Shown here in pieces: positions 1,884-23,758 of a stretch of 23,758 nucleotides of DNA. The position numbers were made by a program, and so were the translations under genes. Within the stretch, counting starts at the first letter, position 1, and the number at the start of each line of letters is the position of its first letter. Source of the DNA: Pigoraptor vietnamica (taxonomy: Eukaryota > Opisthokonta > Filasterea); the NCBI GenBank assembly GCA_943704525.1, contig CALSCQ010001620.1, forward strand, positions 1 through 23,758. The letters run 5' to 3'. Under the pieces are notes generated by a model. It was not told the DNA's origin. It saw nothing but the letters and a program-made list of their open reading frames with translations, and ran no database searches.

Positions 1884-3160
1884 GTGTGTGAGTGCGCGGT
1901 GAGTGGTGGGTGACACGCCGATTTGCGTCTACCGCAGGCGATGGAGGGTGTTGGGCGCAAAGCGAGGGGCGACAACCCGTTCAAAAATCGCCTCATGATG
2001 TCCGAGTGGATGGTCGAGGTGGGGATGGGGTGCTTGTGTTGCACCACACACGAACACGCACACGCACGCACGCACACACGCACAGACACATAATTCGCAC
2101 AAGCAAACACACAAACACACACGCTCGAATACACAGGGAATACCGCACACAAGTGAACGCATACACGCACACACGCACGCACACACTCAACACTCAGCAT
2201 CCACTGGGCGACCGGGGTACCGATCCCTTCTCTCTATTTGCGCAGATTCCCCCAGACCTTGCGACGGCGTGGTCGTTTGTGGTGTGTCCCGTGGGCAAAC
2301 GTTGCCTTGTCATCGCGGTGGGTTCACGCACCATCCCCGCACTCCCGACCATCGTCGAAATGCTATGTCGCACCCGCATCCCCAGCAACCACTCCCTCAC
2401 AAACAAACATATGCCGCGTGTGCTCAGCTACATTGCGCCCCGCAGAACAATTCGTCGACGTGCGCATACCAACGCAACGGGTACCGCATTAAGCGCTTCA
2501 CGTCGGCGTTGCCGGGCGGCGGGGGTTCGCGGCAGAAGGGCGGCTATGCGGCGCTCGACTGCATCTATAACGAGGGCGCCGGCGTCTTTTACGCACTCGA
2601 CATCCTCTGTTGGGGCGATTATCCCGTGCACGACAGGTGGGCGTGCAATCGATCGAATGTACCTCTTTCTGTCTTCTGCTAGCCCGCGCCTCGTCTGTCT
2701 TTTTTTGTTTTTTTCCCCTTTCAACTCCACTGTTATTTTCTTTATTTTTATTCAAGAGCTTGCCCTCGCTCGCAGCGACCGCGAGTTCCGCCACTTTTGG
2801 CTTCACTCGAAGCTGTCCGAGTGCGAGGGCGCGGGCGAACGGTCCCACACGAACGACCACCCCTTTGTCGTGCTGCAGGGTCACCCATGCACTCCCGAGA
2901 ATGTCGTCACCGCGACTGCGCACGCACTCCAGGTCAACGCTAGCGCCACTTCCACTGCGCCGCTTCACACCGGCGGAGGGGAGAGTGACATGCAGGTCGA
3001 CAGTGGCGCGAACGGCGCGCCCGCACAGATCGCAGTCGACGGCCTGCTCTTTCTCCACAACGGCGCGCACTACACTGCGGGCGCTACGCCCCTCGCGGCG
3101 TGGCTCAAGCCGCACATGGTGTCGGAAGTGCTCGGAATTGCCGTTCCGACGCTGCCGTAA
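1057..3160 (+). CDS. SNUPN: Snurportin-1: m3G-cap-specific snRNP nuclear import adaptor
   Basis: Snurportin binds the trimethylguanosine cap of U snRNAs and links the snRNP to importin-beta for nuclear import. Seven exons are modelled: 1057-1121, 1314-1388, 1507-1741, 1938-2018, 2246-2317, 2446-2636, 2776-3160. Phases agree at all six junctions and give 367 aa (human about 360). An importin-beta-binding region lies at about residues 22-60, with YKGKRVSDQNTRREKMLAMQ followed by further basic residues. An acidic stretch follows (65-73). The cap-binding domain carries LMMSEW (Ser147, Trp149), FVVCPVGKR, FTSALPGG, LDCIYNE, FWLHSKL, CTPENV, VDGLLF and TPLAAWLKPHM (Trp349). By alignment from memory, Ser147, Trp149 and Trp349 match human Ser105, Trp107 and Trp276, and human Lys144 is Arg186 here. 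The start was chosen because the short first exon joins the importin-binding exon in phase. The end of exon 3 is the least certain boundary because it runs straight into a GT microsatellite. The protein stops soon after VLGIAVPTLP, without the human C-terminal tail. The gene converges with the mitochondrial carrier, 246 bp apart. Confidence 0.93.
1742..1890 (+). repeat. (GT)n microsatellite in snurportin intron 3
   Basis: Nearly pure GT dinucleotide begins at the donor of intron 3, with an uninterrupted run of about 43 units at 1792-1878. Apparent Cys-Val or Thr-His open frames here are microsatellite read-through, not genes. In the transcript the tract is GU-rich. Confidence 0.95.
2041..2190 (+). 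repeat. CA-rich imperfect microsatellite in snurportin intron 4
   Basis: This stretch is dominated by CA and CGCA units with interruptions and lies within intron 4 (2019-2245). In the pre-mRNA it is CA-rich and therefore complementary to the GU tract of intron 3 on the other side of the 81-nt exon 4. Confidence 0.85.
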
Positions 3161-3406: not shown

Positions 3407-5218
3407 CTACCTGCCGAGGACACGCATGGCCATTTCAAACGCAAGGAACGTCGCTGCGTTGGCGGGAATGGCGCGCAGAATGCACGGCGTGAATCCGCGG
3501 TAGAAGCCCCTGAGGCCGTCGGAGGCGTACGTCTGGCGAACGCAGTCGAGCATGCCCCTGGGACGACAGGCAGGCGTCAGATTGACGGCAGCGACAGTGA
3601 CGGGGATTGCACGTGCACACACACAGAGGCGCACGAAGGTACACATGCCAGTAAAACCAATGACGGGACGAACAACAGCAGTCGCAGAGAGGCAATAACG
3701 GCAAGAGGCATCCGCGGAACACGCACTTGTACTTCGGCTTGTCAAAGGGGTCGGCCTGCATCTTTGACTTGATGACGTCAAATTGGAAGGTGGGGATCCA
3801 GAACGTGAAGCCCGCGAGGGACCCGCACGCGAGAATCTGCGGCGAGAGGGCGGGCGTGAGTATGCGTCTTGCTTGCGCTTGCTACCGGTGAACGCGCGCA
3901 CATGAAAACGACGGGAGAAATTGTTGACACGCATGCATGCACACACACGCACGCAAGCATACACACGCGCGCGTATAATGCACGAGCACACGGCTCACCT
4001 GGATGAGGCTGAGGTCGGAAGCATTCTTCGTCACTGGGGCAAACTGCCGCACAGCCCACTCGTACATCATAAAGTAACCGCCTGCCAACGGCAACACAGG
4101 CCGTTAGCCGCAATATAACACACTCAACACACACGCGTACACGGCCTCGCACACAACCGTGCGCAAACACACACGCACAAGACAGCACATACGCCGAAAC
4201 GCGCGCATTCGTTCGGCTCCCACGCACCGTAGCCCTGGAACTCGCGGAGGAGGGTGGGCAGCGTGCCGCGGAAGAGGCCGCGCGCGAGCCCATGCTGGCT
4301 GACAATCTTCTTGAGGCAGTCAATGGGGCCGGAATAGGCTGCCTTCTGTCCGCCGGAATTTGTCTGGACCTGTAACATGGAGGCGCATGCTCAGCGTCCC
4401 ATTCCCGCTGTGCGCACACAAACACGCACGCTGCGCCAATGCAGAACCCCCCCCCCCCCCAATGTACTGATCAATGTGGCGATGACGAAACAAACATCAA
4501 ACGCCATGGCACACAGGCAGCGCACGTTGCGCACCGCACCTGCAGCCGAATCCTGACGTGCTCGACGGGGATGGCGACAATGGCGTTCGCGACGCCCGCC
4601 GCAGCGCCGCACAGGTACAGCTGCTGGTACGTCAGCTTGCGCGTCTTGTCGCCCTCCTGCGGTCACGTGGGCGTATCAACTTGGTGAGTACAAATGCACG
4701 GACCAGCGGCGGCCGCAGTAGGCACACACTACGACTTGGCGCGCGAGTGTGGTGTGTAGAGATAGATGGCATGCCACACTAGACAATTGGCCCGTGCGCA
4801 TCTTCACCTGAAAGTACCGCTTGACGGCCTCGACGGTGGCAAACTGAATGGACACACACGCGCCAATGCCCACGAGCGGAGGGATGGTGCCTGCACAGTC
4901 ACGCACTTGCAACTTAGCACGTCACGTGCAACTCGAGTGAACACTGCCTTTCATCCAAAAGTCCGTACAGGCGCGATAAAAGAAAGAAAAAAGAAGTGCC
5001 CCACCCTTATACAGCGCGAGGGGGCCCTCCTGTGTCACCGTCTTCTTGACGCAGTCGACGAACCCGCTGTAGAGGGGGTTTGCGGTGGGCTGCGTCTGCA
5101 GGCGCACCTTGATTGTGTCGAAGGGCTGTCCCACAAGCACCTGCGCCACGCCACCCACGGACCCCGCCGTGATGTCCTTGACCACGCGCACTGCGCCGCC
5201 GTCCCCCGCGTCCGCCAT
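3407..5218 (-). CDS. Mitochondrial carrier (SLC25) protein, YMC1/YMC2-like
   Basis: Inner-membrane metabolite carrier of the SLC25 superfamily; the exact substrate cannot be read from sequence. Seven minus-strand exons are modelled: 5218-5005, 4890-4808, 4656-4540, 4369-4228, 4081-3999, 3836-3727, 3557-3407. Phases agree throughout and give 299 aa, the usual carrier length. Three repeats are seen with signatures [10 protein letters not shown] (from Pro32), [10 protein letters not shown] (from Pro129) and [10 protein letters not shown] (from Gln231). The second, with VEHVRIRLQ, and the C-terminal pattern [14 protein letters not shown] resemble fungal YMC1/YMC2 and, more broadly, the carnitine/acylcarnitine and basic-amino-acid branch. 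In the third repeat the signature proline is glutamine. The start at MADAGDGG suits a presequence-free carrier, but an in-frame ATG at 5275 would add 19 residues. The gene converges with snurportin and diverges from the giant gene. Confidence 0.93.
4447..4460. repeat. C14 tract in carrier intron 3
   Basis: Fourteen C residues on the plus strand lie inside the minus-strand intron 4370-4539, so the carrier pre-mRNA carries a G14 run there. Confidence 0.9.
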
Positions 5219-5789
5219 GGTGAGAGAGTGTCTTCGGAGTAGCGCAAGAAGATGCGTTGATGTACCACGTGCCATTTATTAGGGGCTGTGGCTTGCAATG
5301 CACGCGCAAGGTGAGGATGAAAGTGCGCCTATAGGTGAGGGTTAAGGGTAGGAAGCGTCGACACGTGCCGGGAAAAATAATACTAAAAATAGCTAACAAT
5401 CAAATTGGCTAGTAGGAATAAGCGTCTCGATGTGCTATAAAGTAGACATGGCTATCAACCATATGCAATAGAAAATCATGATGAATCAGTGCTCAGGTAC
5501 AAAATTTTGAGACAAGTAAACATATTCTGAAACTGGTAATAATATGGATGTGAATAGTTAATTTAGAGGTGTATGTGGCTGGCGCGAATTCTGCTTGTGG
5601 CAGGGCGTACACAAACGCTCTCGACACATGCCGTTCAGCGCGCGTGCGCACACACACACGCACACACACACACACACGCACACACACATCGATAAGCAGC
5701 GCACGCATTGCGCTCGGTGCATTCGAACCTCTCCCTCGTCTCGCTCGCACGTCCGCTGCTGCGCGTGTGCGTGGCTGCGGTGCGCGAGG
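5219..5789. promoter_or_regulatory. Divergent intergenic region, carrier (-) and giant gene (+)
   Basis: This region lies between two start codons facing apart and must hold the upstream sequence of both. From about 5380 to 5580 it is markedly AT-rich compared with its surroundings. A TATAAA occurs at 5436-5441, 349 nt before the giant gene's ATG, so its role as a TATA box is doubtful. The 10-mer GTGAGGGTTA at 5335-5344 also occurs upstream of snurportin (899-908). The part nearest the giant gene (about 5648-5689) is a CA repeat. No separate gene is seen. Confidence 0.55.
5648..5689. repeat. CA/CGCA microsatellite upstream of the giant gene
   Basis: An interrupted CA dinucleotide tract lies about 100 nt before the predicted start codon, probably in the promoter or 5' UTR. 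An open frame through it (Thr-His repeats) joins in frame to the giant gene but has no coding character. Confidence 0.85.
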
Positions 5790-7998
5790 ATGGGCAAGAA
5801 GGACAAGTCCGAGGGGCACCAGCTCTTTGAGCTGTCCAACCCGCTCCACAGCAACGACGGCTCCCAGCAGTCGATTGTGGACGGCCTCGTCGAGGACGAA
5901 CACGGCCATTCGGACGACACGACGTTTTTCAAGTCAAGCGGAGGAGAGGGGCTGTCGGCGACGCGGGTTGCGATTATCGTCGTGGTTGTGGTTGCCATTG
6001 CCGCCGCAGTGGCTGTCCCCGTCGCGGTGAGTGTGTGGCATATTCTGTGCTCTAGGGAGGCGGTGCGTGATTTCACTGTGGGCTGTTGTGTATTGCACGC
6101 TCTATGGCGCCGTGCTGTGTGGAGTGAGCCCGTGTCTGCCCGTGGCTCAGCGAGTATCATGGCCGCAATGTGCGTTGATTGCGCACTGCGTTTTGGGGGG
6201 TCTGGGCTCAGATCGTTTTTGGAAGTGGTGTTCAGGCGCTGGGCTCACCAATCGCCGTCTCTCTCTCTCTCAGATTGTCCTGACGCGCAACAGCAGCAAG
6301 TCGTCCCCCGGCGTCGTGTGTCCGCTCGCCACCGCCTCTTCTTCGCTGGGGGTCGTCTACGAGGGCAATTACGCGCTGCGTGCCGCGTCAGTGCATCGCG
6401 CTCCCTCCTGTGGGTCGTCTTTTCCTTCCAACACGGCCGAGCTCAGCGTCAAGTGGACGGCGCCGTCCCCGGGCGAGTACGTCTTCCGCACCACGGCCTC
6501 GAACTCGACGCTCTATGTGCGCTCCATCTCGTGCGATGGCGCTCTCATCGCGTGTGCCGTCGGTTCGTACGTCGCTTTCAACGCCACGGCGTCCGACATC
6601 GCGGCGGGCGCGTTCGTCCTCGTGGCCGACGCGCGGGCGTCCGCGGGGTCCGTGTCGCTCAGCGTGGAACGCACCGCCGTCGAGGTGACCGGGCAGATGA
6701 CTTCCTTTGCCGACTCGTTCAACAAGGCGCCCGATGGCTCTTCCGTGGACATTGTCGCGGCTGCGGGGCCTGGCAACACGGGCAGCGCGGGCGGGGAAAG
6801 CGGCGTGTCGGCGCTCGTCGCGTCGTCGTTTGGCGGCAATGCGAAGATCGCCATCTCGGATCGCAATGTGACCGTTCTCGCGGCCGCACCCGCGGGCGAG
6901 GCGGCGTGGTTTCCGACGGCCGTGTACCCCGTCGTCGTCGTGAGCGGCAAGTTTTCGCTTCCAGGCGTCTCTGGCTGGCTCACCGGCCGCGCGGCGTTCT
7001 TCTACCGCGCCTGTCGCCCCAATTGCTCAGAGTCGGCCCTCGAGGTCGTGATGGACCTCGTATCAACCGCTGGCTGGGCGCCCACCGCGCTCCCTGGCAT
7101 TGGCGTGGGCACGTGGCTCGACAGCCTCGCCTTTGGTGGCAGCACGCACGTCGTCATCTCGTCGGTGCAGTTTGAGCGCGCGGGCGCCTCGCGGCGTCGA
7201 CGTGCGAGTGGGCCGGTGTACGCGGGGCCTGTGCCGCCCGGCATCACCTTCCTCACGACCACACGCGTCCCCCGCGGCGCCCTTTTTGGGGACCTTGGCG
7301 GCGTGCTTTCCGACACGCTTTACGATTCCGACAGCCTCCTGGAAGGGCAGCTGCCGAGCGCTCGCCAGCCGTCGTTCTCCCTCCGGACAAATGCGACGCT
7401 GCGCCTCGCAGCCCCCGCGAACGGCGGCGTTCCCGTGTTTGGCGTGGGCGCTAGCGGCGAGACGACGATCGCCGTTGACGGCACAGGCGCGCGGCCGAAC
7501 GTGACGCTGAGCACTCCCGGCGTGCTCAACGCGCTCTCGGATCTGAAGTTCCCGGACCTCTCGGCGCTGTTCGGCGGCCGCTTTGTTTTGAACAGCACCG
7601 ACCTGATCCTCTCTGCGCGCTTCCCGGGCCCCATTCACCTCCCCTTCTTCCGCAACAACGCGACGACGGCCGTTTCGCTCAGCGGCATTGCGTTTGACGT
7701 GCGCCTGCGCCGCGGCGACAAGCTGACGCTCGCATCCGTCCAGCTTGCCGGGACTGTCGACACCGGAGACAATGTGTACGCGGCGTCTGGCGGGCTGGAC
7801 CGCGATACGGGCGACTACTATGTTGCGTTTAAGGTGGTGCGCTCGGGGACGATGGATCAGGCGCTGTTTGGGCTTGTGCCGGACGACTCGCCGTTTGCCT
7901 CGCTCTACTTCAACGGAAGGTGCGCGGACCCGTTTCTTTTTCTGTCCGTGGGTTTCACTACAGTGGATCCTGTGTCCGCACATGTTGTGCTCAGTCGC

Positions 7999-8062
<64 letters not shown>

Positions 8063-11000
8063 CCTGTGTGTGCGCCCGCGCACCCATTCGCTCATCTCAC
8101 TGGTGTGTACTTCTCAATCTCGACGCCTCTCCAAAACACGCAGCATCGATGTCACCGTGGCCTCACGTGACGTCGTCGACCTCAACAACCGGACGTACAA
8201 GGCCGGCGTCGCCCTCAACGCCAACGTCCTCGTCGCGAACGCGCTCGCGGACCGCCTCCGCACGCTCAACCGCGCCGTCCGCAGCACTTCCTTCGCCGCT
8301 TCGGCCGTCTTCCCATGGAACGACAGCGGCGCGTGGTCCCTCGTGCTCGCCGCCGACGAGCTGTGGCTCTCGCCCTACATTCGCGTCGGTGCCATCCGCC
8401 TGTCTTTCGACTCTGCGTCGAGCCGCATGCACGTGGCGGGCGACGCGGTGGCCTACCTATCCCCTAGCGTGCCCCTCGGTGAGCAGATTGCGGCTTCGAT
8501 CTCGGCCGACCACAACTCGCCCGGAGACGACTACGTGCTCGAAGGGCGCGTGGCTGCATCGTGGGCGCCCGGGGGTCAGTCGTGGCTCGTCGTGCGTGAC
8601 GCCGTCCTCCACATTGAACTCTCGCCCCTCGTCTTTGGACGTGTGCGCACGGTGTCGGTGTCCGGGAGTGGCGACCTCACGCTGGGCAACGGAACAAAGC
8701 TGTCGCTCGCGGCTTCGGCGGCCGTGCAAGACGGCGACTACTCTCTCCAAGCGCGCGCCTCTGCGAGTTTCGATCTGGGCGCCCTCGTGCGCGTGGTTGC
8801 GGGCGGCCAGGCGGCTCCGTCGTGGCTCTCTACGGGGTTCACGCTTGCCGGCAATGCATCGATTGCGATCCAGTCTGCCAACGCAACCGCGGGACTGCTG
8901 ACCAAGTCGCTCGCGCTGACGGCCACTGCGTCGCTCACGGCCGACATGACGGCGGCGCTGGGCAGCGGCGTGCAGGGCGCGTCTGCGTCCCTCGTGCTCA
9001 CGATGCCGGTGCTGGGCGGCGCCCTCTCCGACATGAAGCTCACGGTCGCCGGTTCCATCGCGGAGCTGCGCCTGACGCCGGCGTTGCGGGTCGTCGGCGC
9101 GCGGTTTGTGCTGCTCGACCCCACGTCCCAAAAGCCGTCCTTCTCTGTGGGCACCGTCGTCGAGATTGCGCCGGCGCAGTTCTCCACGCCGCTGCGCTTT
9201 GAAGTCGCGGGCGAAATGTCCCGCAACGTCGGGTCGTCGCTGCTGCAGCTGTCCGGTGCACTCGCGGCGCCTTGGGAGCCCTTCGTGTGGGCCTCGCTGG
9301 AGAACGCGCGCGTCAACGCGACCATTGCGCGCGATGGCACAGGGAAGGCCACAACGGCCCTCGTCACCGTGAGCGGGACGCCGTCGTTCTCGTACGGCGC
9401 CGTCACCGCCACGACGACCTTCGACATGGAGCTCGACGGCATCACGGGCGACTTTTTCGTGCGCCTCTCCGGCATCGTTGTGCACTCGGTGGACCACCTC
9501 ATTGCTGCCGCGCTCCCCGACGTCGTCAGTGGGCCCGTCCTCGCTCCCGCGGCGGCCGTTGCGATGGGGACAACGTTCGACGTCTCCGTGGCCACGCGCG
9601 CGTTCCCCGGCCGCGCGGACGCCGGCGTCGTCGTCCACGGCCTCGTGGTCATTACTGGCATTCTGTACGATCCTATCCGCCACCTCAACCCGGACATGTC
9701 GCGCGGCGACGTCGACATTTACTTCCGCTCGCCGCTCGTCCCCCGCGCCCTCAGCGACATATCGGTGCGCGTGGTCGCGGCGCTGCGGCCTGTGCGCCTG
9801 GCCGACTCGATCTCCGTTCCCAGCGTCGCCGTGGACCTCCCGCGCCTGGACTCTGCGGTCGTCTCCGTCACGACGCGTGCCGAGGTCTACCTGTCTGACC
9901 GCAACAACCCGCTCGTCATTGAGCTGGACGGCTCCTTCCGCGCCGTGGCATCCGCGGCCCTCACGGGGTCGCAGGGACTCGCGGCGACAGCGCACATGAC
10001 CGGGCGGGTCGTCGGCGACGTGTCTTTTCCGAACGGCCGCGGCCTCCTCCGCGTGTCCGCGCTCAATGTCTCGCTCGACATTGCCGTCACGCCGCAGACG
10101 CTCTCGATTGGGAACGTCTCGTTCTCGGGACCGGGTGAGCTCGTGCTGAACACGACGCGCATCGCGCTCGCGCTCGCGGGTGCGCTTGCGCCGAACAACG
10201 TCGACTTTTATCTCCGCGCCTCCGTCTACATTGGCAGTGCGACGTCGGACGCGTCGCTCCCCGCCGCCGTGCTCAGCGCGGCCGCCGGCGCACTCGGCAG
10301 TCTCGATCCAAGTACGGTGCCGACGACGGGCGACGTCATCACGGCGGACAGCACACGTCTCAGCGCGAACACGGCGGCGACCGTCGTGTTCTCGACGTAC
10401 GACGACCCGGCTCTTGGAATTGCGGAGGGTCTGTCGCTCTCGGCGACGGCGGCGCTGCGGGGCGAGGTGTTTTCGCCCGTGTTTGCGATCCACCCCTCGA
10501 TCGCCAACGCGTCGTTCTCGATGCAGATTGCCCTCAGCCTCACTGGCCGTTACGCCCCGCGGTTTGCAGTGCGCGCGAGCATTGGTCGGCTGTGCGTTCG
10601 CGAGAAGGCGTGCCTCAAGGGCCTCGCCGTGGACGTCCGCGGACGCAACTCGGGAGTGTCGGACATCACCGTGTCCGGCACCCTCGTCCTCGCCATTTCT
10701 CGCGCAAACGACCTTCCCCTCGTCTTTGACGTCGCGGCGACTTACAACAGCTCTGCAGCAGGCGGTTCTGGGCTGCTGACGTTCGCGGGCTCGACGCAGG
10801 CGCCGTGGAACCCGCTCGGCGCCAGTTGGCTGGTCGTGCGGTCGATGTCGGCGCGCTTCTCCGTGCAGTTCAACCCGACGCGCGCGGTGGACGTCGTGTC
10901 CGTCACGGGCGCTTGCGACGCATTGCTCGGTCGCACGGGTGCGGCTGCATCGGCGACGATTGCGCTGACAGTGTACCCTGCGACCGGCGAGTGGACGCTC

Positions 11001-14000
11001 CTCGGCACGGGGGCGCTCGCGGCCGACCTCGCTTCGCTCACGCGCACTCTGTGGGGCTCTGGCACTCCGCCGGGCGTCCTACGCAACTTCTCCGTCCCCT
11101 TTTCCGCGGTGATGAACGTGACGGTGTCGACCATCGATGACAGCTCGGTCGGTGCGCGCGCGGGCATCGTGGTGGCTGTCGAGGCGTCGCTTGCGGTGAA
11201 CTTTATCGCCGTGATTAAGAAGATCGCCGGCAGCGACGGGCTCGGGTCGGCGTCGGCCGTCCTCAAGCTCTACGTGCCGTCGGCGGACGCGACGTTTGAG
11301 AGCGCGGAGATTGCTGTGGCCATTCGCATGGCTGCGATACGCCTGTCGCCGACGGTGCTTCTCGTTGGCGTCACTGCGGACGTGACGTCCCTCGAGGATC
11401 CGGACATCCGGGTGTCGTCTGTGCTCGAGATCCTCTCCCCAACGAATCCCAACCCCGTCGTGTTTGCCACGAGCGGCTCGCTGAAGGAGATCGTCGATCC
11501 CTCGCTGTACAACGGCGTCGACGACCCCCTCCTCTACGCGCTGACGCTCTCCGGCTCCCTCGTGGGCGAGTGGCGCCCGTACGCGTCGACGTGGTTTTCG
11601 GTGTCCAACTGCGTCGGCGATGCGCTGTTCGAGACGAACGGCATCGGCGTGTCGGGCGCGTCGCTCGTCCGCGCGTCGTTTGCGGGCACTCCCAAGTTCA
11701 GCTTTGCGACGTTCAACGCGGGCGCGCGTGTGGAGGGCGTGGCCAAGTCCAACATGGTCGACTGGCGCCTCCGCTCGACGGGGGTGCTCGTCGCGAACCT
11801 CGCCGCCATCGCGCAGGACGTTGTGTTTGGGGGCGCGAACATCACCGCGGCGGCCGACCTGCAGCGGCTCGCGCGGCTCGGGGAGCTCGCCCTCTCTGCG
11901 TCTGTCAACATCACCGCGTCGACCTACACGGACGTGTTTGACGACACGCAGGCGGGCCTCACTGTGGACGCCGTTGTGACGCTGAACGGCGGCGTGCTGC
12001 GTAACGTGACGTCGATGGGCTTCCGCCCGCCGAACGCGCAGGCGACGCTCCGCCTGCAGATGCCCCTGCGCCCCCAGTCGGCGTCGAACGTGACGGCCTC
12101 GCTCTCATTCTCAGCGGACGAAATCCGCGTGTCGAACCGCCTCCGCTTCTACGCCGTGCGCGTCGCTGTCCCGTCACTGTTCCCGCTGTCGCTCGCGGCG
12201 TCGTCCCTCGTCGAGCTCACCCTGGGATCCGCAGAGCCCCTCGGCTTCCTCGCGACGCTCTCGGCGGCGCAGGCGACTACCAACGGCACCGACCTCGTCA
12301 CCCTGACGGCGACGCAGGTGCGGCCGTGGCGTGCTCCCGGCACCCTCGGCACGTGGCTCACGGTCGGCAGCGCTTCCCTCCGCGCGACAATTGCCCGCAG
12401 TCCCTCTGACGGCCGCAGCCCATCGGTGGTGGGGACGATAGAGTGCGGCGCGCGCGCCAAGATGTCCCTGGGCACGGACTTGCGGCCCGCGGACATTGAG
12501 GCAGACGCCTCGTTCGTCGTCGATACGGCGAGCGGTTTCTGGGCCGTCGCCCTCCGCTCGATCGATCCCTCGCAGCTGGCCAACATCCTCGGGGCCGCTG
12601 CGGGGGCGCGCGACGCCGACCTTCCCAACACGGTCTCCGGCGCCCTCGATGCGCTCTCTGCGCTGTCGTCGATGAACATCACGTACGCGCCCACCGCAGG
12701 GCCCGCGTTTGACGTCGACGCCGGGCTGACGGTGCAGGTGCGCGCGTCGCTGGCGGAAGGCGCGGTGGCGGCGCTCCTCTCGGCCGTGGGCGTGTCTGCG
12801 ACAAAGGGCACGTCGCTCCTCGCGACCTTTCGCATGCCGGTCAACATGTCGCTTGATGCCATCGCCTTCTCCCTCCGCCTTGCGGGCGGGCTTGACTTTG
12901 GTACGAGCGGCGCCGTCGCGCTGCGTGAGATTGTCGTTGACGTCTCGCGCCTCTCCCCGCCGGCCGCGCGGGTGTCCAGCATTCTGGAGCTGGCCTTCGG
13001 GGCCTCGGCACCCCTTCGTATCCGCGTGGACGCGTTCCTGGGCGATGTTGGCGCCGGCGAGATACTCAACGCGACGGGTCGCCTCGTGGCCCCATGGTCG
13101 CCCGCGTCCGCGCGCTGGATGACCCTCCGCTCGTGCAGCGCCGCGTTCTCGTTTGCGCCCGGCCGCCGCCCGTGGTTCCGCGGCGGGCAGCTCGACTGCA
13201 GCGCGGATATTGTGCTTGGGGCGACGGTGACGTCGGTCTCGGTTTCCTTGATCGTCCCCGACGGCGCAACAGGCTACGCCGTGCGGGTGTCGGCGGTCGC
13301 ACTGCCGTCGCTTGGCGCCCTCTTCTCGTCGCTCACCAGCAACAGCACGCCCCCCGTGTGGCTGCCGGACATGAAGCTCCTCGGCTCTGCCAACATGACG
13401 CTGTCGACGTACGACGCGCCGTTTGTGGGCGTGCGCGCGGGCTTTGCGCTCTCGGCGACGGTGACCCTTCCCGTGAGCATCCAGACACAGGTGACGAGCC
13501 TCAACGCGCGCACGTCGGACGTCAAGTTCTCGCTCGACCTGTTCGCGCCGCTCGACGCGTCGCGTGCCGACGACGTTAGGTTCTCGTTCAGCGTTGGCGC
13601 TCAGGAGGTCCGCCTCTCGCCGTACGTCCGTCTCGCGGCGCTGAGCGTTGGGCTGAGCTCGCTGTCGCCGCCGACGATTGCGGCGCAGTCGGTGGTTGAG
13701 ATCACGACGGGCAACAACAGTGTGCTCAGCTTCCTCGCGGCGGGCACGGCGACGCACCTGTCGACGGCGTCTGCGCGCATCGCAGTGAACGGGACGCAGA
13801 TTGGCACGTGGCGCCCCCTCGGCTTCTCGTGGCTCGAGATATCGAACGCGCGCCTGGACATGGCCATCCTTCCCTCCGGCACCAACCGCATCGCCGGGCT
13901 CGCGCTACAGGGCGACGTGCGCATAGTGCTCCCCGACGCCCTCCTCGCGGCCTCGGCCGACGCACGCCAGCCGCCGTCCGTCCGCGTCTCGGTCGCCTTC

Positions 14001-17000
14001 AACCCGGCGACGATGGACTACGTCGTCACTGCACGGGGCATACAGGTCCGCAGCCTCGCGGACCTGCTTTCGGTCATCTTTGGCACCGTCGTCCTCCGCG
14101 ACAGCTCGCCCCCCTTGCTCGCGGACGCCGGCCTTCAGCGGCCGTCGATGGACGTGACGCTAGCATCCGCGGCGACGGCGGACGCGCAGCAGGGCCTCAC
14201 GGTCGCCTCGCGTGTCGTCGGCGTCGGGTCGGTGCTCGAGCCGCTCAATGCGATGGGGTCGCTTGTGCCGGCGGCGGACTTTGACATGTCGTTCAACGTG
14301 CCCCTCGACGCGCTGTGGAAGCGCACAATGGCCGCGCTGGCGAACGCGTCGATCGATTTCCGGGGCGTCTCGCTGAGCTTGAACCCCGGCGTCGCCATCA
14401 ACATGAGCAGCGTGTACCTCAGCGTGCGAAACCTCCTGTCGCCGGCGATTCGCGTCGGCGGCATCATCACCCTCACGCTGAACGAGAACCCTTACCCGCT
14501 TCGCCTGTCTGTCGATGGCGCGTACAACAACAGCGCGAGCACCATGACGCTGCGCGGCAAGCTGCTCAGCGCGTGGGCGCCGTTCAACAGCTCCTGGATG
14601 AGCGTCCCCGCGGCCGACGTTGCGGTGGACCTCGACATTAGCGACGACACGCCGCGCATTCTCTCTTCTCTGCGCTTGAACGGGACGCTCGGGATGACGT
14701 TCAAGTACTCGTCTGTGAGCGCGACGAACGCGGCGCTCAACTTCACGATGTACCTGGACCGCAGCGGGAAGGACTTCTGGATCAGCGCGAGCGGCGAGCT
14801 GACCGCGTTCACGGAGACGGTCGTGCGCACGGTGCTGTCGAACCTGACGGTGTCGCAGATGCCGCAACTGCTGTCGGACACGGTGCTTATGGGCGTCACG
14901 GCGCAGTTTTACCTCTCGACCTTCGACAACGGCTTCGAGGGGATATCGAAGGGGTTCACGATGATACTGCAGACCCTCGCGCCGCAGACGGTGTCGACGC
15001 AGCTGCAGAGCATCCAGAACTCGGGGTTCACGGGCATGAACGTGCTGCTGGCGACGTTCTTCTGCGAGATTAACATGCCGCTGTTTGGGGGCAAGCTGAG
15101 CGACGTGCGCTACCACCTCACGTACAATCTCGGCAGTCCCATCCAGCTGACGTCGATGCTGCGCGTCTACTACATGCACGTCGAGGTGTCGAACATTGTG
15201 TCGCCCTCGCTCAACCTGCTCTCGATTGTCGAGACGACGGTTGTCGGGTCCAAGTCGCCGCTTCGCTTCAGCGTGCAGGGCGGCATCAACCAATTTACCA
15301 CGGGATCGCAGGTGTGTGCGCGCGGGTGTGCGCAGTGCATATGCAGTCGCAGCCATGTACTCCCACTCGGCGGTTTGTGGGGAGCGTGCGTGATGTATTG
15401 CCCTTGCCGTCGTGCGCTAAGCATCCCGCCACCTTCCCCCCCCCCCCCCCCCCCCCCCTGCCACGCAGCTGATAACGCTCCAGGGCGATCTCGTCGATGT
15501 CTGGAAGCCCTTTGACGTCGACTGGCTCTCAATCACCAACGCCACCATGTACCTCGGCGTCGTTCCCGGCAACCCCGCGGGCCAAAAAGTCACCTCCCTC
15601 TACTTTGACGCAGCCGCACGCTTCCAGCTCGCGTCCCTCAGCGCGGCCGTGTCGGCGCGCGTCGACGTCGACCCCTCGACCGCGCAGTTCGCCCTCCGCG
15701 CCGTCGGCCTGAGCGTCTCGAGCGTGTCGGAGATGATGCGTTACGTTGCCGGCGCACCTTCGCTCCCCGCCATCCTTGCCCCGATTTCATTCGCGCGGCC
15801 GTCGGTGAACGTGTCGATCGCGTCGTCGGGGTCCAAGTTCGGCGTCGCTCCCGGCGTTACGCTCGACGCGCGCGTGTCGCTGGATGGCGACATTCTCAAG
15901 CCGTTCTCGCGTCTGGGCCTCGCGGGGGCGGTGCGCAATGCCTCGTTTGCGCTGTCGGTGTACATGCCGGCCCTCAACGCGACGCTTGGCGGCATCCAGC
16001 TCCAGTTCACCGCTGACGTGCGCGTCGTCCAGCTGTCGCCGTCGGTGCAGCTGACGAACGTCTTCCTCTCTCTCCGAAACCTCGTGCGGCCCGTCCTGGC
16101 CGTCGGGGGATCCCTTGCGATCTCTGCGGGGAACGCGCCCGCCGACGGCCCCGTCGTCTTCACGGTCGCCGCGACGTACGATGCAACGGACGCGGCGACG
16201 CTCACGTTTGCCGGCGCTCTGACGTCCCGCTGGCGCCCGTTCGGCCTGTCGTGGCTTTCGGTCGACCAGGCTGCTGTGACCGCCGTCGTGCAGTCGGCGA
16301 CGGACGACGGGCTGATTCGCGCGGCGGCCGCGCGCATCGATTTCAACGGCTCGCTGTCCCTCTTCAACGGCAGCGTCGCCGGGCTGCGCTTTGCTGGACG
16401 CCACGGGCCGGGCGCCGGACTGTTCTGGGTGCGCGCGAGCGTGTCGACGATGGCCGACCTCGGGCGATTTTTCAAGGCCGCGCTCAACCTCACCGCGGCG
16501 CCCGCGATCCTCGGCGACTTCGACATTGCAACACCTGCGCGCGTCGTCGCGGGAAGCTCACTCTCGCTCGCGCTCTCGGACGTTCCGGAGGATGGCGTGC
16601 GCGGGGGCGTCTCGTTCCTGGGCTACGCGCGCGTGGGCGGGGACACGATCAAGCGCATCTCGTCGCTCGGCATTTCGGTGTCGAACGCGACGTTCCTGCT
16701 CACGTGCCGCTTCCCGCTCGCCGTCCCCTCGCTCTCCGCCGTGGACTTTCAGCTGCGCGCGGACGTCAGCGAGGTGAGGCTGTCATCCTTTGTGCGGTTC
16801 TCCAGCCTCCTCGTCTCGATCGACCGCCTCGACAACCCCACTTTGAGCGTATCGACGGCTATCGACGTGACGCTCCCGGGCGACACGGCTCCCCTGCGCT
16901 TCCAGGTCGCCGGTTCGCTCGCCGGCGCGGCCCTCGCCAACTCGACGGCCGCGTTCACTCTGTCCGGCGCGCTGCTCGAGCCCTGGCGGCCGCTGGGCCT

Positions 17001-20000
17001 CGACTGGCTGATGGTGGATCGCGCTGTGATGAACATCACGGGCACCGGCAGCCGCATTGCGTCGATTGGTGTGCGCGGGTCGGCGACGGTGCGGCTGGGG
17101 CAGTCGGTCACGGCGGGGATCGCGCTCGACGTCGCCATGAACGGGCTCACCGGCGACTACAACATCACCATTGGCGGCGTGCTCGTGGGCGACTTTGGGG
17201 ACCTCGTGCGCGGCATAGCGGCGTGGGGCGGCGGCGAGATTCCCGCCGTCTTGCGCGAGTTCCGCCTCCCCGCGGCGACGTCCGCCAACGTCACCATCTC
17301 GTCGACGTCGGGCTTCTCCGTGAGCGTGCGCGCGCTGTTTGGCTCGCTCGCCGTGCAGCACCTGAGCCCGTTCGGCCGCGCCGACATTCCCGGCTTTGCG
17401 TGCACCGCGACCCTCTCGATGCCCCTCGGCACCTTCGATCCCGCGCGCATGCGCCTCTCCGTCGCCGCGGACATTGCTGACCTCTACCTCGCCGAGCACG
17501 TGCGCCTCGTCAGCCTCGGCGTCTCGCTGCAGGGCCTCTACCCGCCCTCGTTCTCCGTCGAGACGGTCGTCGACCTCTTTGCGGTGCGCGACGACCCGAG
17601 CGTCCCGCCGCTCCGCACGCGCCTTGTCGCGCTGTACGAGGACCGCGGCGTGCTGCGCATCATCGGCCGCCTGCTGAACACGTGGACGCCCCCGAAGGCG
17701 CCGTGGCTGCAGATCCGCAACGCAGACGTCAACGCCACGTTCTCCGTGACACAGCCCCAGGTCGACCGGACGCTGTCGTTCTACGCGCAGTTCGCGGCGG
17801 GCGCCTACGCTGACGTCACGTACGCCGCCGGCGCGACCATTTCGGGCGTCATTCTGGACAAGACCACCGGCTCTGACGTCACGCTCCTCGCGCGCAACGT
17901 CCCCGTCGTCGACATTGCCGTCATCGTGACGTACTACATCACGAACGCGCCCGTGACGCTGACGGGCCTTTCTCCGCCGGTGGACGGGCGCATCGACGTT
18001 GAGATATCGACGATTCCCTTCACCGCTGCGGACGGCGTGACGCAGCGCACGCCCGGCCTGTACCTCGGTGCGAGCGTGACGGCGCACGACGGCCCCCTTC
18101 TCATGCTGCTCAAGTTCCTTAAACCCGACAGCGTGCAGATTGGGACGCGCATCAACTTGTTCTTGCCCGTGTTTGCGCCCAAGGCGAAGGAGGCGCCGCA
18201 GGGCATTTACCTGAACGCGATCGTGTCGGGGTCGATTGGCCTCTCGGCGGGCATGCGTTGGGGCGGCCTCGAGGTGCGCGTCGCGTGGGACTCGCTCTTC
18301 AAGAACCCGACCATTTCCCTGACGTCGTCGCTCTCCGTCGACATGCGCTACAACCCGGACCCGCTCGTGTTCTACGTGCGCGGGACGTTCGTGTCCGGAC
18401 AGCCGCTTCTGATCCAGGGCGGCATGAGCGGCGACTGGCGCAACCCGTTCAACGCGGCCGCGTGGCTCACCATCTCGAACGTCAGCGCGACCGTCGTCGT
18501 CGACACGACGGGCACGCTTGCGCAGCCTCTGCGCACGCTGACGCTCGATGGCTCGATCCGCATCGCCCTGAACGCCGATAACGCGACGATCGTGCGCTTC
18601 CGCGGCGAGGTGGCCAACATGACGGACTTTGCCATCGCAGTGTCGGGCGTGAGCGCGCGGAGCATTTCCGCGATCCTCCCGACTGTCACCGGTCGCAGCG
18701 ACTCTGTCCCCTCGCTCATCAACAGCCTCGGCGCACTCACGACGGGCGCGCGCGTCGTTCTCTCCACGTACCCGTACAGCGACATCACGCCCTCCGGGGC
18801 CGTGCGCACGGTGGATCCCGGCTTCACATTCGACGTCGCCGTCTCGACATCGAGCGGGCCGATGATGGACCTGGTGAATGTCTTCCGCCTGGGCAGCCGC
18901 ACGAATCGCGTTGACTTCCTCGGGGGTATCTACGTACCTGTGTTCGACTCGGTCGCGCGCGATCGCCTGCGCCTGTACCTCAGCGCCGCGTCGATGGCCG
19001 ACAGCCTGACGGACCGCCTGCAGTACGTGGGCATGACCTTCGACATTCGCTTTGACCGGTTCAACGTCGCGCCGAGCGTGTACGTCGGCACGCAGCTCAG
19101 CGTGCGCTTCCCGGCCGGCCTGGACAAGATGTCCAATGGCACGATCGTCAAGTTCCAGGTGACGGGCGCCTACACGGCCACGGACGGCCGCCTCGTGCTC
19201 GCGGGCGCCATGGTCGGCGACTGGCGCAACCCGCTCGGGCTCGGCAGCTGGCTGTCCGTGCGCGACTGCAGCGTCAGCGTCACCATCGACACGCGTCCGC
19301 CGGTGCAAATGGCCGAGCTGTACGTCTCTATGGGCGCCGGCGTGACGCTCGGCGGCGTGCTGACGAGCGTCGTCGCCGAGGCGCGCGCGACGCAGCAGTT
19401 CATGGGTTTCATGGTGTCGCTGACGGTCAAGTCGCTGCAGAACCTTGCCGGCGCCGTCATGTCGATCACCAACACGAACGCGGTGCATGACGTCATCCGC
19501 ACGATGACGGCGGCCGTGGACGTCAGCGTGGCGCTGACCGTGTCGAACTACGACGACGCGAGCAAGGGGATTGAGTCTGGCGTGAAGCTCGAGGGCGCGG
19601 TTGCGCTGACGTCCGGGATCGTCCTCGACGCGATGCGGCTTATTGACAAGTCGGCGACGTCCGCGCGTTACACGCTGTCGATGCTCATCCCCGTGTTCGA
19701 CATCGACCCGCTCAAGATACGCTTCCGCCTCACGACGCCGCCGCTGGCGATCACGCCGACGTTTGGCCTGCTTGGGCTGACGCTAAGCGTGATGATCGCA
19801 GCGCCGCCAACGATCTCTGCCAGCACGGGCATCTACCTCAACCTCACCAGCAACCCCGTGCTGCAGTTCTGGGTGGAGGGGACGTTCAAGACGTACGGCT
19901 CGGTGGTGCTCACGGGCGGCATGAAGGGCATGTGGCTCAACGCGTTTGGGATCCCGGGCCTCTCGATCGGCAATGTCGTCATCTCGGCAGAGTTCGGCAA

Positions 20001-20955
20001 CACGTACGGCGTGGGGCTCGGCGGCATGATCGTGATTGGGTCGGTGGGCGTGAGCCTCTACGGCCGGGTCACGTGGCCGGACATGCGCGACCTCTTCCTC
20101 GCCGGCACCATCGCCAACAACGTGACGCCGCTGTCGTTCCAGGACCTCGCGCTGTGGTGGAACGGCGCGTCTCCGCCGAACATTGCGCGGATGGACCCCT
20201 CGCAGTATTCCAAGTCGTGGTCGTTTGGGAGCGCGTCGTTCTACCTCGCGCCGATGGACGGCGTGTTCAACCAGATCAAGTACCGCGCGGGCCTCGGCAT
20301 TCGCGCGCAAATGATTGTCTTTGGCTATATGCTGTCCGCGGAGGTCGTCGTGAGCCGCAAGAGCATCGGCTGGCTCAACATTCCCGACGTCTCGTTCTCG
20401 TTTGTGTTTGAGAGCGCGTCGCTGAGCGCACAGCTATCCAGCACGCTCGGGGACCAGCTGCCGGGCAGCATCAACGACCTCAGCGCCACGGAAAAGTCAA
20501 AGATTCTGAAGGTGCGCTTGCACGACGTTATGCACTGTTGCTGTGTGTGTGTGTGCGTGTGCACGGACGCTCTCGTTGAATTGCACTCACATCTCTTCTG
20601 TCCCTCACAGGATTACGATGTGAGCAAGCCCTTCTTCTCGCTCGAGCGCTTTGCCATTACCGACTTTAGCTTCTCGAACCTCGCCACCGGCAAACTGCCC
20701 ACACTCGAGATCGACTTCTATCTCTTCGGCAAGCTGCGTCACGTGGGCTTCTCGGTCGCCCTCCCGCAGATCTTCACGTCGGCGTTCAGCGGCATCATGA
20801 GCATACTGCGCGGCATGTTCCACTTGCCGGAGTGCCTGCGCGACTCGGACTGCTTCCGCCCCACCGGCTGCGCGTGCGAGGCGTGGCAGCAGGCTAAGGG
20901 TGCGTGTCCGGACAGCTGCTACGGCGACTGCTGGTTCTTCAAGTGCACATACTGA
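5790..20955 (+). CDS. Giant predicted membrane-anchored tandem-repeat protein, unrecognised family
   Basis: I do not recognise this family. Five exons are modelled: 5790-6026, 6274-7919, 8144-15311, 15469-20511, 20611-20955. Phases 0, 2, 0, 0 all agree and give 4812 aa. Residues 1-59 are hydrophilic and acidic and begin MGKKDKSEG. Residues 60-82 form one membrane helix (VAIIVVVVVAIAAAV) preceded by Arg59. The rest has many N-glycosylation sequons, so a type II topology with an extracellular or lumenal C-terminal part is inferred. Residues about 105-210 resemble a PPC-type beta-sandwich (KWTAPSPGEYVFRTT, then Cys-x-x-x-x-x-x-Cys). About 215-380 is a second beta-rich domain, and RRRR occurs at 386-389. 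From about residue 520 to 4700 there are roughly 17 tandem units. The tail has eight cysteines between Cys4773 and Cys4810. The start was chosen for its context (aggATGG) and the clean tail-helix order after it. The sequence suggests a cell-surface adhesin or coat protein; a long lipid-transfer-like groove is another possibility. Neither is shown. Exon boundaries are strong; function is unknown. Confidence 0.85.
8003..8054 (+). repeat. (TG)26 microsatellite in giant-gene intron 2
   Basis: An uninterrupted TG run of 52 nt lies inside the intron 7920-8143. Open frames run through it because it lacks stops, but splicing from AAG/GTGCGC to GCAG/CATCG restores the repeat-protein frame. Confidence 0.93.
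15436..15458 (+). repeat. C23 tract serving as pyrimidine tract of giant-gene intron 3
   Basis: Twenty-three C residues end ten bases before the acceptor CAG (15466-15468) of the 157-nt intron 15312-15468. It is the most extreme pyrimidine tract in the window and is probably length-variable. Confidence 0.85.
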
Positions 20956-21041
20956 GCGCGCGGGAGTCCCGTTACCACTGCTAAGCGTGTCCAGACAGCT
21001 GCTACGGCGTCTGTTGGGGCTTCAAGTGCACGTACTGAGCG
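20903..21041 (+). repeat. Direct duplication of the giant gene's last 56 bp
   Basis: Copy 1 (20903-20958) encodes the end of the Cys-rich tail plus its stop. Copy 2 (20986-21041) follows after 27 bp and matches at 50 of 56 positions, including the TGA. In the coding frame three differences are silent, and the other three change Asp to Val and Phe to Gly. All cysteines of the segment are kept. The 5' edge of both copies also shares CTAAG. Copy 2 lies after the predicted stop, so it is 3' UTR unless used by alternative splicing. Confidence 0.9.
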
Positions 21042-21269
21042 CTGGTCCCCTGTTGCTCCTCGTTAGCCTCGCTTTTTTCGTCTTGCGCATTTCGCGGCGT
21101 GTTTTCCAAAGTCTTTACATCAATGAACGGCGCACTGCGCCATGCCCAGAGAAGACCGGAAGCATCCAAGGCACGCTAGCACCACGCAAAACGCAAAGGC
21201 GGTGTAGAGGGGCGTGTATGTGTATACATGTGTGATGTGGGGTGTGTGTGCGTGTGCTTTGTGTGTGTG

Positions 21270-21316
<47 letters not shown>

Positions 21317-21339: not shown

Positions 21340-22001
21340 CTAGTCAAAGTCGGGGATGTCGTCGTAAGAGTACCCCGGATATTGCTTCCACGTATAATAC
21401 GCAATGCGCACGTGATAAAAGCCCGGTATGAAGAGCAGCGAACCAATGACGAGGAGAGGGATGGCGCGGTCGTGGATCTGTCGCAAGAGAGCGCGTCAAA
21501 TTGGGCGATATGTACTGCGTGTGTGTTGCGTGTATGTGTGCGTGTATGCATGTGCGTCCATGTTAATGTGTGTGCGCGTGTTCGTGTGCGCGTGCCTGTG
21601 TTCGCGTTGATTCAAAGTTGCACACACAAAAGCGTGGAAGGGCATGTGCGTGCGTGTGAACCCACCTTGCTCTCGATGACACCGGTCATAAGGAGCGACC
21701 CAATCACAATAAAGAGCGAGCCGATAAGAAAGAGAGCGGTGGCCAGCGCAATGGCCTTCACAGGCACCTGCACACACACCAGCACGGTTGCTCGTGTGAG
21801 AACAGGAACTGACGCACGTAACGCGGCTGTGTCTGCGAGTGAGCCCCTGCGTGTGTCTGTACGGTCGAGCGCGCACGCGTTTGGGCGACACAGCTTGCCC
21901 CAGTAGCGAACCTTGGACGGCGGCTTGATGTACTGCTCGTCAGTGAACTCGTCATTTCCCGCAGAAAGGCGCGTATACTGGTATTTGCTTCTTTTCGCCA
22001 T
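21340..22001 (-). CDS. TMEM230: TMEM230 family two-helix membrane protein
   Basis: TMEM230 is a small two-pass protein of endosomal and secretory/synaptic vesicles in animals, implicated in trafficking. Three minus-strand exons, 22001-21912, 21767-21666 and 21477-21340, join in phase 0 to give 109 aa (human isoform about 120). Conserved blocks are YTRLS near the N terminus, [18 protein letters not shown] in helix 1 (residues about 35-57), [10 protein letters not shown] leading into helix 2, [11 protein letters not shown], and the C-terminal [10 protein letters not shown]. These match the human protein almost residue for residue. The donor of intron 1 (GTTCGC) is unusual for this window, but the joined protein supports it. 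The gene diverges from CYRI across 748 bp and converges with the giant gene. Confidence 0.95.
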
Positions 22002-22124
22002 GGCCACAGACTATGCTAGACGATAACGCGTCAGGAGAGCCTCTTGTAATCGTTCACTTTGTTTCACCATCTGATGCGGCTGTTGGGAGCGTGTGGAATC
22101 TTGTGCATCCATCTCCGAATTTAT

Positions 22125-22749: not shown

Positions 22750-23679
22750 ATGGGCAATCTTATGCAGATCATCAAGAAGGATCAGAAGGGCGCCACCCAG
22801 GACCTCTTCCTCGACTTTGAGAGTGGGTGCACGGTTCGAGTGGCGCATGGGCGAGGGTGATGCGCGTTTGTGTGTGCGTGTGTGTGTCGCATCGAGGCTC
22901 GTTCGAACGTATTGCCTAAGGGGTTGACGAACCCGTAATTTGAATTTTGTGTTGTTATTGTGCTTTTTTAAAAGAGAAAAGTATACGTGGAAAGTATGTC
23001 TCTCCTCCGCGTGTGACTGGCGAACGAAGACTGACGTGCTCTCTGTGGCGCGTGCAGACGCGCAACCGACGGACAGCGAGCTCCAGGTGCACCAGTATGT
23101 GTCTGAAATTCTCGCGACGACGCCGGGGCTCTTGAGCGACTTGCGAGCATATACAGGATGCGGAGACGCCATCCGACAGGTGCGTGTGCGTGTGCGCGTG
23201 TGCGTGCGTGCGCCCTCGGCATGGCATGGATCCGTGTGTCTTACTTTGGTGTTGGAGGGGCTCAGTTACTCACCCTTTGCTGTCCGTCGCAGGCTATATC
23301 GCACCCAAGCAAAGAGACAGAAGAGAATGCGTGGGCCTCCGTGTGCCCGCAGGTCGAGAAGCTCAAGGTCTTCTACGAGTACTCTGGGCAGCTCGGTGCG
23401 TTCGAATGGTCGCGAGTTACGTGGCTGTTTCCATCAATGCGACTGCGAGAGTTTGGGACAATCTGTGTGTCTGTTGTGTTTTTTTTTTTTTTTGTGCCGA
23501 GGGAGAATGTGCCGGTCGTGTGCTCAACGATGGCTGTGCCGCGTGCAGAGAGCGCGCTCCCCAAGCTCCTCACGGCGCTGTGCCAGGGCGACCCCTTCAG
23601 GAACCTCGAGCAGAAGCAGGCGCTCGCAAAGCAGTTTGCCGACATTCTCCACTTTGTCCTCACATTCGATGACCTCAAG
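22750..23679 (+). CDS. CYRI: CYRI (FAM49) family Rac1-binding regulator, 5' part
   Basis: CYRI proteins bind active Rac1 and restrain the Scar/WAVE complex at the plasma membrane, limiting Arp2/3-driven protrusion. Four exons are visible: 22750-22822, 23058-23179, 23293-23395, 23549-23679, giving 143 codons in phase. A further donor (GTGCTT) lies at 23680, so the gene continues past the window. Conserved stretches are MGNL with the N-myristoylation glycine Gly2, FLDFENAQPTDSE (completed across the first junction), LLSDLRAYTGCGDAIRQAI, KLKVFYEYSGQLESAL and LAKQFADILHFVLTFDDLK. All align with human FAM49A/B from memory. The Rac-contacting arginine pair of the family lies further downstream and cannot be checked. 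The gene diverges from TMEM230. Confidence 0.95.
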
Positions 23680-23758
23680 GTGCTTTCCCGCGCTGGCTTC
23701 CACTCCCCTCCCCCCACCCCCCACCCCTTCTTCTCCCCCCAAAAAACCCAACACCCCT
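23680..23758 (+). other. Start of CYRI intron 4, cut by window end
   Basis: The sequence after the GTGCTT donor is pyrimidine-rich (C and T runs) with no acceptor before the end of the window. The next CYRI exon lies outside. Confidence 0.7.

Follow-up and report, generated by a model that had tools for sequence, protein, structure and literature searches.

A giant, predicted membrane-anchored protein of Pigoraptor vietnamica built of diverged repeat units of about 249 residues

Overview

A single gene of five exons in the analysed window (positions 1 to 23,758 of contig CALSCQ010001620.1 of the filasterean Pigoraptor vietnamica) appears to encode a protein of 4,812 residues, most of which consists of a genuine array of ~249-residue units: 15 firm, one partial and one weak. 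The units are amphipathic to an unusual and uniform degree, in a pattern that alternates as in beta strands. Judged from its sequence, the unit appears to be an unnamed one within a known kind of protein, the giant anchored beta-repeat protein. We tentatively read the protein as a rod anchored in the membrane, whose Cys-rich end and glycosylated faces would be held at a distance from that membrane and would serve in attachment or in the building of a coat.

Gene model and layout of the protein

The five exons, all on the plus strand between positions 5790 and 20955, join across GT..AG introns into one frame of 14,439 nt with one stop. All four donors start with GT and all four acceptors end in AG, and the phases after exons 1 to 5 are 0, 2, 0, 0 and 0. 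The GC content of the gene at codon positions 1, 2 and 3 is 0.63, 0.52 and 0.87, respectively. The single giant gene with four phase-consistent junctions that was proposed in the first-pass annotation is thus upheld by the joined 4,812-residue frame. The parts of the gene and its neighbours are as follows.

5790-6026, 6274-7919, 8144-15311, 15469-20511 and 20611-20955, plus strand: exons 1 to 5 of the joined translation
6027-6273, 7920-8143, 15312-15468 and 20512-20610, plus strand: introns 1 to 4, between the joined exons
5790..5966, plus strand: predicted cytosolic tail, residues 1-59, with no sequon
5967..6282, plus strand: single membrane helix predicted from hydropathy, residues 60-82, split by intron 1
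6283..7656, plus strand: ectodomain outside the units, residues 83-540, with 6 Cys and a very weak Pfam match of galactose-binding-like type (E 0.097)
7657..8519, plus strand: partial unit, residues 541-753 (profile match 562-720), across intron 2; 28.7 bits, hhalign probability 90.6
8520..15302, plus strand: units 1-9, residues 754-3014, all within exon 3; from leave-one-out profiles and alignments
15303..19890, plus strand: units 10-15, residues 3015-4491, with intron 3 three residues into unit 10; from leave-one-out profiles
19891..20736, plus strand: unit 16, degenerate, residues 4492-4740, across intron 4; 4.7 bits in leave-one-out, hhalign E 0.009 in register
20737..20952, plus strand: C-terminal end, residues 4741-4812, an amphipathic stretch followed by 8 Cys in the final 40 residues
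20902..20959, plus strand: 58 nt made up of the final 17 codons, the stop and a further 4 nt, with a second copy, 90% identical, at 20985-21042 behind the stop
1892-3160 (plus), 3407-3994 (minus) and 22928-23757 (plus): neighbouring gene pieces with Pfam matches to snurportin, mitochondrial carrier and CYRI/CYFIP, in that order

The repeats themselves support the splicing: intron 2 (residue 628) falls within the profile match of the partial unit, and the first three residues of unit 10 are supplied by exon 3. That two or more separate genes have been joined in error is very improbable. The gene model is a prediction from the sequence, and the joint of exons 3 and 4 (residue 3017) almost coincides with a unit boundary, as such an error would have it; against this, the membrane helix is interrupted by intron 1 and the partial unit by intron 2, and every exon phase fits. 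A second in-frame ATG lies upstream at 5628, so that the N-terminus could extend by 54 residues; by our reading the start codon at 5790 sits in the more favourable context.

The first stretch of the ectodomain past the helix (6286-6702) reads like a bacterial-type PPC/galactose-binding beta domain, the Pfam match being the above one at E 0.097 only. At the other end of the protein, the helical moment of the amphipathic stretch reaches 0.53, and the 58-nt copy behind the stop is a local duplication of the Cys-rich end. Long (CA/TG)n runs occur upstream of the gene (~5650-5690), in intron 2 (8003-8053) and downstream (21263-21300). The neighbouring pieces match the snurportin m3G-cap binding, mitochondrial carrier and CYRI/CYFIP Rac1-binding families, and on these matches the neighbours appear to be ordinary cell genes. 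A further frame on the minus strand (21612-22010), in which Pfam gives nothing at E up to 0.1, may resemble TMEM230.

The repeat array

Each unit was scored with a profile built from the other units, alongside one reversed and one shuffled control per unit. In total, 15 of the 16 units were recovered at 64.0-152.2 bits, the best control reaching 9.6 bits, and the odd units aligned with the even units at an hhalign probability of 99.8 (E 4e-30). The partial unit was matched by a profile from which it had been excluded. Unit 16 was not significant in the leave-one-out scoring, and its hhalign probability was 4.5. With 15 firm units, one partial and one weak, the earlier count of about 17 is upheld, the last unit being unproven.

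The anchor motif proposed at first, W-x-P-x(5)-W-[LMF], was said to recur 15 times; as typed it has no match in the protein, being one residue too long. The corrected form, W-x-P-x(4)-W-[LMF], has 10 exact matches, far beyond chance (mean 0.007, maximum 1 in 2000 shuffles). Variant anchors carry two extra residues at 2023, 4007 and 4269, are shortened at 1005 and are degenerate in units 3 and 16; the spacing of 233-262 residues that had been given for the anchors is correct. The most conserved columns of the 243-column profile are G9, W15, P17, W22, P104, G135 and P171, each kept in 13-15 of the 15 firm units. Between units, variable loops free of low-complexity linkers were seen by eye.

The 15 firm units share a mean pairwise identity of 20.6% (range 14-29). 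Neighbouring units (20.1%) are no more alike than the others (20.7%), which gives no hint that units were duplicated or homogenised recently; the array of diverged copies is old.

Search for known families and relatives

When the 16 units were scanned singly, nine Pfam families were matched at E up to 1, each by one unit, with an unconvincing best E of 0.021; NCBIfam gave one family (E 0.054) and PHROGs two matches, each by one unit (best E 0.0081). Scanned as open frames, exons 3 and 4 gave two further Pfam rows, the better of which (E 0.023) lay in the stretch read through intron 3. Among PDB sequences, the unit profile found nine weak rows (best E 0.92), and single-sequence searches returned one row at E 0.43 and two at E 2. 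The matches of the units in these four collections are at chance level. The remark in the first-pass annotation that it knew of no named domain with this motif set is consistent with these scans, in which no single unit strongly matched a described repeat family. Its wider proposal, a new family, holds only relative to the libraries compared, Pfam, NCBIfam, PHROGs and PDB sequences.

In the genome of P. vietnamica itself (32.5 Mb, 1395 contigs), unit 7 had 10 matches with E no higher than 10 among the best-scoring candidates, all of them within this gene, and none of the reported matches marked another copy of the unit elsewhere. No relatives were found in viral contigs (four of eight scans) or in prokaryote genome contigs (queries: exon 4 and three units), both with single-protein queries that reach close relatives only, nor by tblastn among phages and plasmids with 975 of the 4,812 residues as query. 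Since the searches for relatives covered viral, prokaryote, phage and plasmid collections, the gene is not an established orphan among eukaryotes. A search of the literature on giant surface proteins of protists found nothing evidently to the point.

Predicted membrane anchor and topology, and N-glycosylation sequons

Hydropathy in a 19-residue window has its maximum, 3.2, at residue 62. The second-highest peak (2.2, at residue 1634) belongs to unit 4, and five further peaks of 1.65-1.85 are likewise inside units. Past the helix the chain contains 61 sequons, as compared with 27.7 +/- 4.8 (maximum 44) in 1000 shuffles; the 59-residue tail contains none, a count that is uninformative at so short a length. 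Of the 25 Cys residues, eight fall in the last 40 positions. One helix, a sequon excess and a C-terminal Cys cluster together fit an extracytoplasmic chain, and the earlier description of one membrane helix followed by a sequon-rich repeat ectodomain agrees with these values. By our count the charges flanking the helix are about +1 before and +2 after, which does not favour a type II orientation; despite this, type II is likely for the predicted membrane protein.

Anatomy of the unit and amphipathic alternation

In the 15-row profile, each unit shows 12 runs of alternating hydrophobicity, 7-13 columns long, which make up 47% of the columns. When treated alike, the Ig-like YeeJ repeat of E. coli (84 columns, 13 rows) has four runs of 7-9 and 38% of its columns in them. 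Helix-like periodicity was noted by eye around columns 88-98, 104-110 and 147-157. The helix-like stretches follow the fifth and the seventh strand, and five-strand modules are not evident, in what is a reading of the profile rather than of a structure. Two comparisons of one half of the unit with the other gave no clear sub-repeat (E 0.078 and 0.028, probabilities 0.7 and 1.7).

The strength of the pattern was expressed as an alternation index, the fraction of windows in which the beta-amphipathic moment is strong. For residues 754-4740 the index is 0.232, with shuffled sequence at about 0.11. Among 160 E. coli open reading frames of at least 250 residues, drawn from 13 stretches that were picked to include AsmA-like proteins and barrels and hence not a random sample, the unit region would rank fifth, below TamB, AsmA, LpxD (third) and YhdP. 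YdbH (0.225) came just below the units; further down lay the FimD barrel (0.194) and, level with it, YicH (0.193), as did OmpT (0.175), YeeJ (0.165) and BamA (0.145).

In a composition-matched control within the P. vietnamica genome, the 15 firm units had a mean index of 0.244, higher than that of cadherin chunks (mean 0.159; 7 chunks from two reading frames; p = 1e-4) and of VPS13 chunks (mean 0.158; 21 chunks from two reading frames; p = 6e-6). The latter two did not differ (p = 1.0). The VPS13 frames include regions outside the groove, and the two segments matching VPS13_N gave 0.206 and 0.183 when taken alone. Outside this test stood unit 16 (0.14), a third reading frame that matches VPS13_N weakly (0.172) and shorter cadherin frames (0.127-0.176). 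Because the VPS13 and cadherin values of the same genome are equal, alternation cannot tell a groove from a sandwich. The index was accordingly rejected as proof of a groove, LpxD, which is not known to be a groove protein, also having ranked third. Strict alternating runs, tried as a second measure, were less selective: their ratio to shuffles was 4.5 in the units and 5.3 in TamB, but likewise 3.7 in YeeJ, 5.3 in CusB and 5.6 in an IS5 transposase, with YdbH at 0.6.

Possible roles of the protein

As we infer it, the N-terminus would hold a long single-pass glycoprotein in the membrane, and the ectodomain would form a rod of about 17 amphipathic beta units, each of 12 strands, placed end to end. 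Such a rod could act as a fibre or stalk, either on the surface of the cell or on the lumenal side of a secretory organelle, keeping the Cys-rich tip and the polar faces of the units distant from the membrane. It might attach to prey, to a substrate, to another cell or to the coat of its own cell. The single open frame, the firm units with their 12 alternating runs, the want of low-complexity linkers between them, the one clear membrane helix, the excess of sequons and the C-terminal Cys cluster are in favour of this reading; these features are seen in the sequence, while fold, orientation, location, glycosylation and the adhesive or structural role are inferences. The genome also seems to make use of giant beta proteins at the surface: cadherin has 47 matches in it with E of 0.001 or less (39 above the curated cut-off), in two places (contigs C1328 and C874), so that it seems to hold giant cadherins. 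Several features speak against a rod or adhesin. The even divergence of the firm units would be unlike that of many adhesin arrays, in which divergence is not so even; the higher alternation of the units relative to the cadherin chunks does not clearly indicate the usual adhesin sandwich; no known adhesin domain is among the Pfam matches; and the flanking charges do not favour the predicted orientation. If the fold of the unit is new, the surface biology of little-studied protists gains a large repeat family.

Three other readings were weighed against this rod. In the first, which we consider unlikely, the protein would be an exoplasmic, bridge-like lipid conduit: its units would lie edge to edge and form an unbroken U-shaped beta groove, hydrophobic on its inside, with the N-terminal helix anchored in one membrane and the amphipathic C-terminal end reaching another membrane or a particle. 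This proposal draws on the alternation index of the unit region, which lies among those of TamB, AsmA, YhdP and YdbH, and on the order of an N-terminal anchor followed by a beta ectodomain as in TamB-type proteins; TamB and AsmA are anchored in one membrane by an N-terminal helix. The even divergence of the units would also fit fixed positions along a rod. The amphipathic stretch at the C-terminus is a further point in its favour, and amphipathic helices are reported at the extreme ends of groove multimers (PMC7613979). Set against it are the equal indices of VPS13 and cadherins in the same genome, the high rank of LpxD and the low value of AsmA-like YicH, the lack of Pfam TamB or AsmA matches in the genome, a unit of 12 strands that by eye is not made of clean five-strand modules, and the about 458 residues that separate the helix from the partial unit. 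Taken to its full extent, the proposal becomes a glycosylated, anchored lipid bridge outside the cytoplasm, in which ~200 strands (17 units of 12) would line one groove, perhaps tens of nm long, and move lipid between the cell membrane on one side and prey, a coat or a secretory organelle on the other; this we regard as a shade more doubtful still. With a fold of this kind, bridge-like transfer of lipid would take place on the exoplasmic face of eukaryotic membranes. A narrow literature search, itself weak evidence of absence, found no exoplasmic lipid bridge in eukaryotes.

Less probable again is a membrane-tethered chain of closed beta domains (TULIP-like or jelly-roll-like), in which every unit on its own would bind a lipid or other ligand. 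The size of the unit, its 12 alternating runs with short helix-like stretches and the want of a clear sub-repeat would suit such domains, but families of this kind are unmatched in Pfam or among PDB sequences, and the helix-like stretches, at only ~11 residues, are shorter than the helices of TULIP domains. An amphipathic beta belt lying on a lipid surface, as in apolipoprotein B, would account for the giant size and the uniform amphipathic strands; it is nevertheless highly improbable, as vitellogenin/apoB is unmatched among the Pfam matches listed at E up to 1 and a membrane anchor is unexpected in the protein of a secreted particle.

Comparison with known systems

The AsmA-like proteins of Gram-negative bacteria combine an N-terminal membrane anchor with a long, beta-rich extracytoplasmic part. 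The giant protein is similar to them in the strength of its alternation (in four of the five tested, YicH being lower), and with one predicted N-terminal helix and an excess of sequons after it, it may have the same order of anchor and extracytoplasmic beta part. It differs in its true 249-residue sequence repeat, its sequons and its Cys-rich end. The Pfam TamB and AsmA profiles had no match in the P. vietnamica genome at E up to 1; as positive controls, TamB was matched in 6 and AsmA in 2 of 14 control genomes, E. coli being among both. Profile-profile comparison with the five E. coli AsmA-like proteins (TamB, YhdP, YdbH, AsmA and YicH) gave probabilities of 0.1-0.2, in a test in which these proteins, as single sequences against each other, also reached at most 1.8.

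The VPS13/BLTP repeating beta-groove (RBG) proteins are described as cytoplasmic, with a repeated module of a five-strand meander and a sixth element that is a helix or loop, and VPS13C and VPS13D are reported to contain internal duplications about 500 residues long (PMC7613979). The giant protein resembles them as a giant rod of repeated beta strands, predicted in its case, while its units alternate more strongly than the VPS13 chunks of the same genome. None of the VPS13/BLTP families was among the Pfam matches listed for it at E up to 1; VPS13_N has nine matches in the genome, four of them above the cut-off, and none in the giant gene. No match at E up to 1 was listed, either, for the TULIP profiles LBP_BPI, SMP and JHBP or for the vitellogenin-type profiles that stand for apoB, in both cases without a positive control.

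Cadherin, Big and Ig profiles were likewise not among the matches listed at E up to 1, and the same library finds seven cadherin stretches in another reading frame of the genome. Giant surface proteins of the cadherin or Ig type share with this protein a chained array of beta units with sequons, and cadherin repeats are present in the same genome. The unit of the giant protein differs from theirs in its size of ~249 residues and in its 12 long alternating runs, as opposed to the four shorter runs of the YeeJ repeat.
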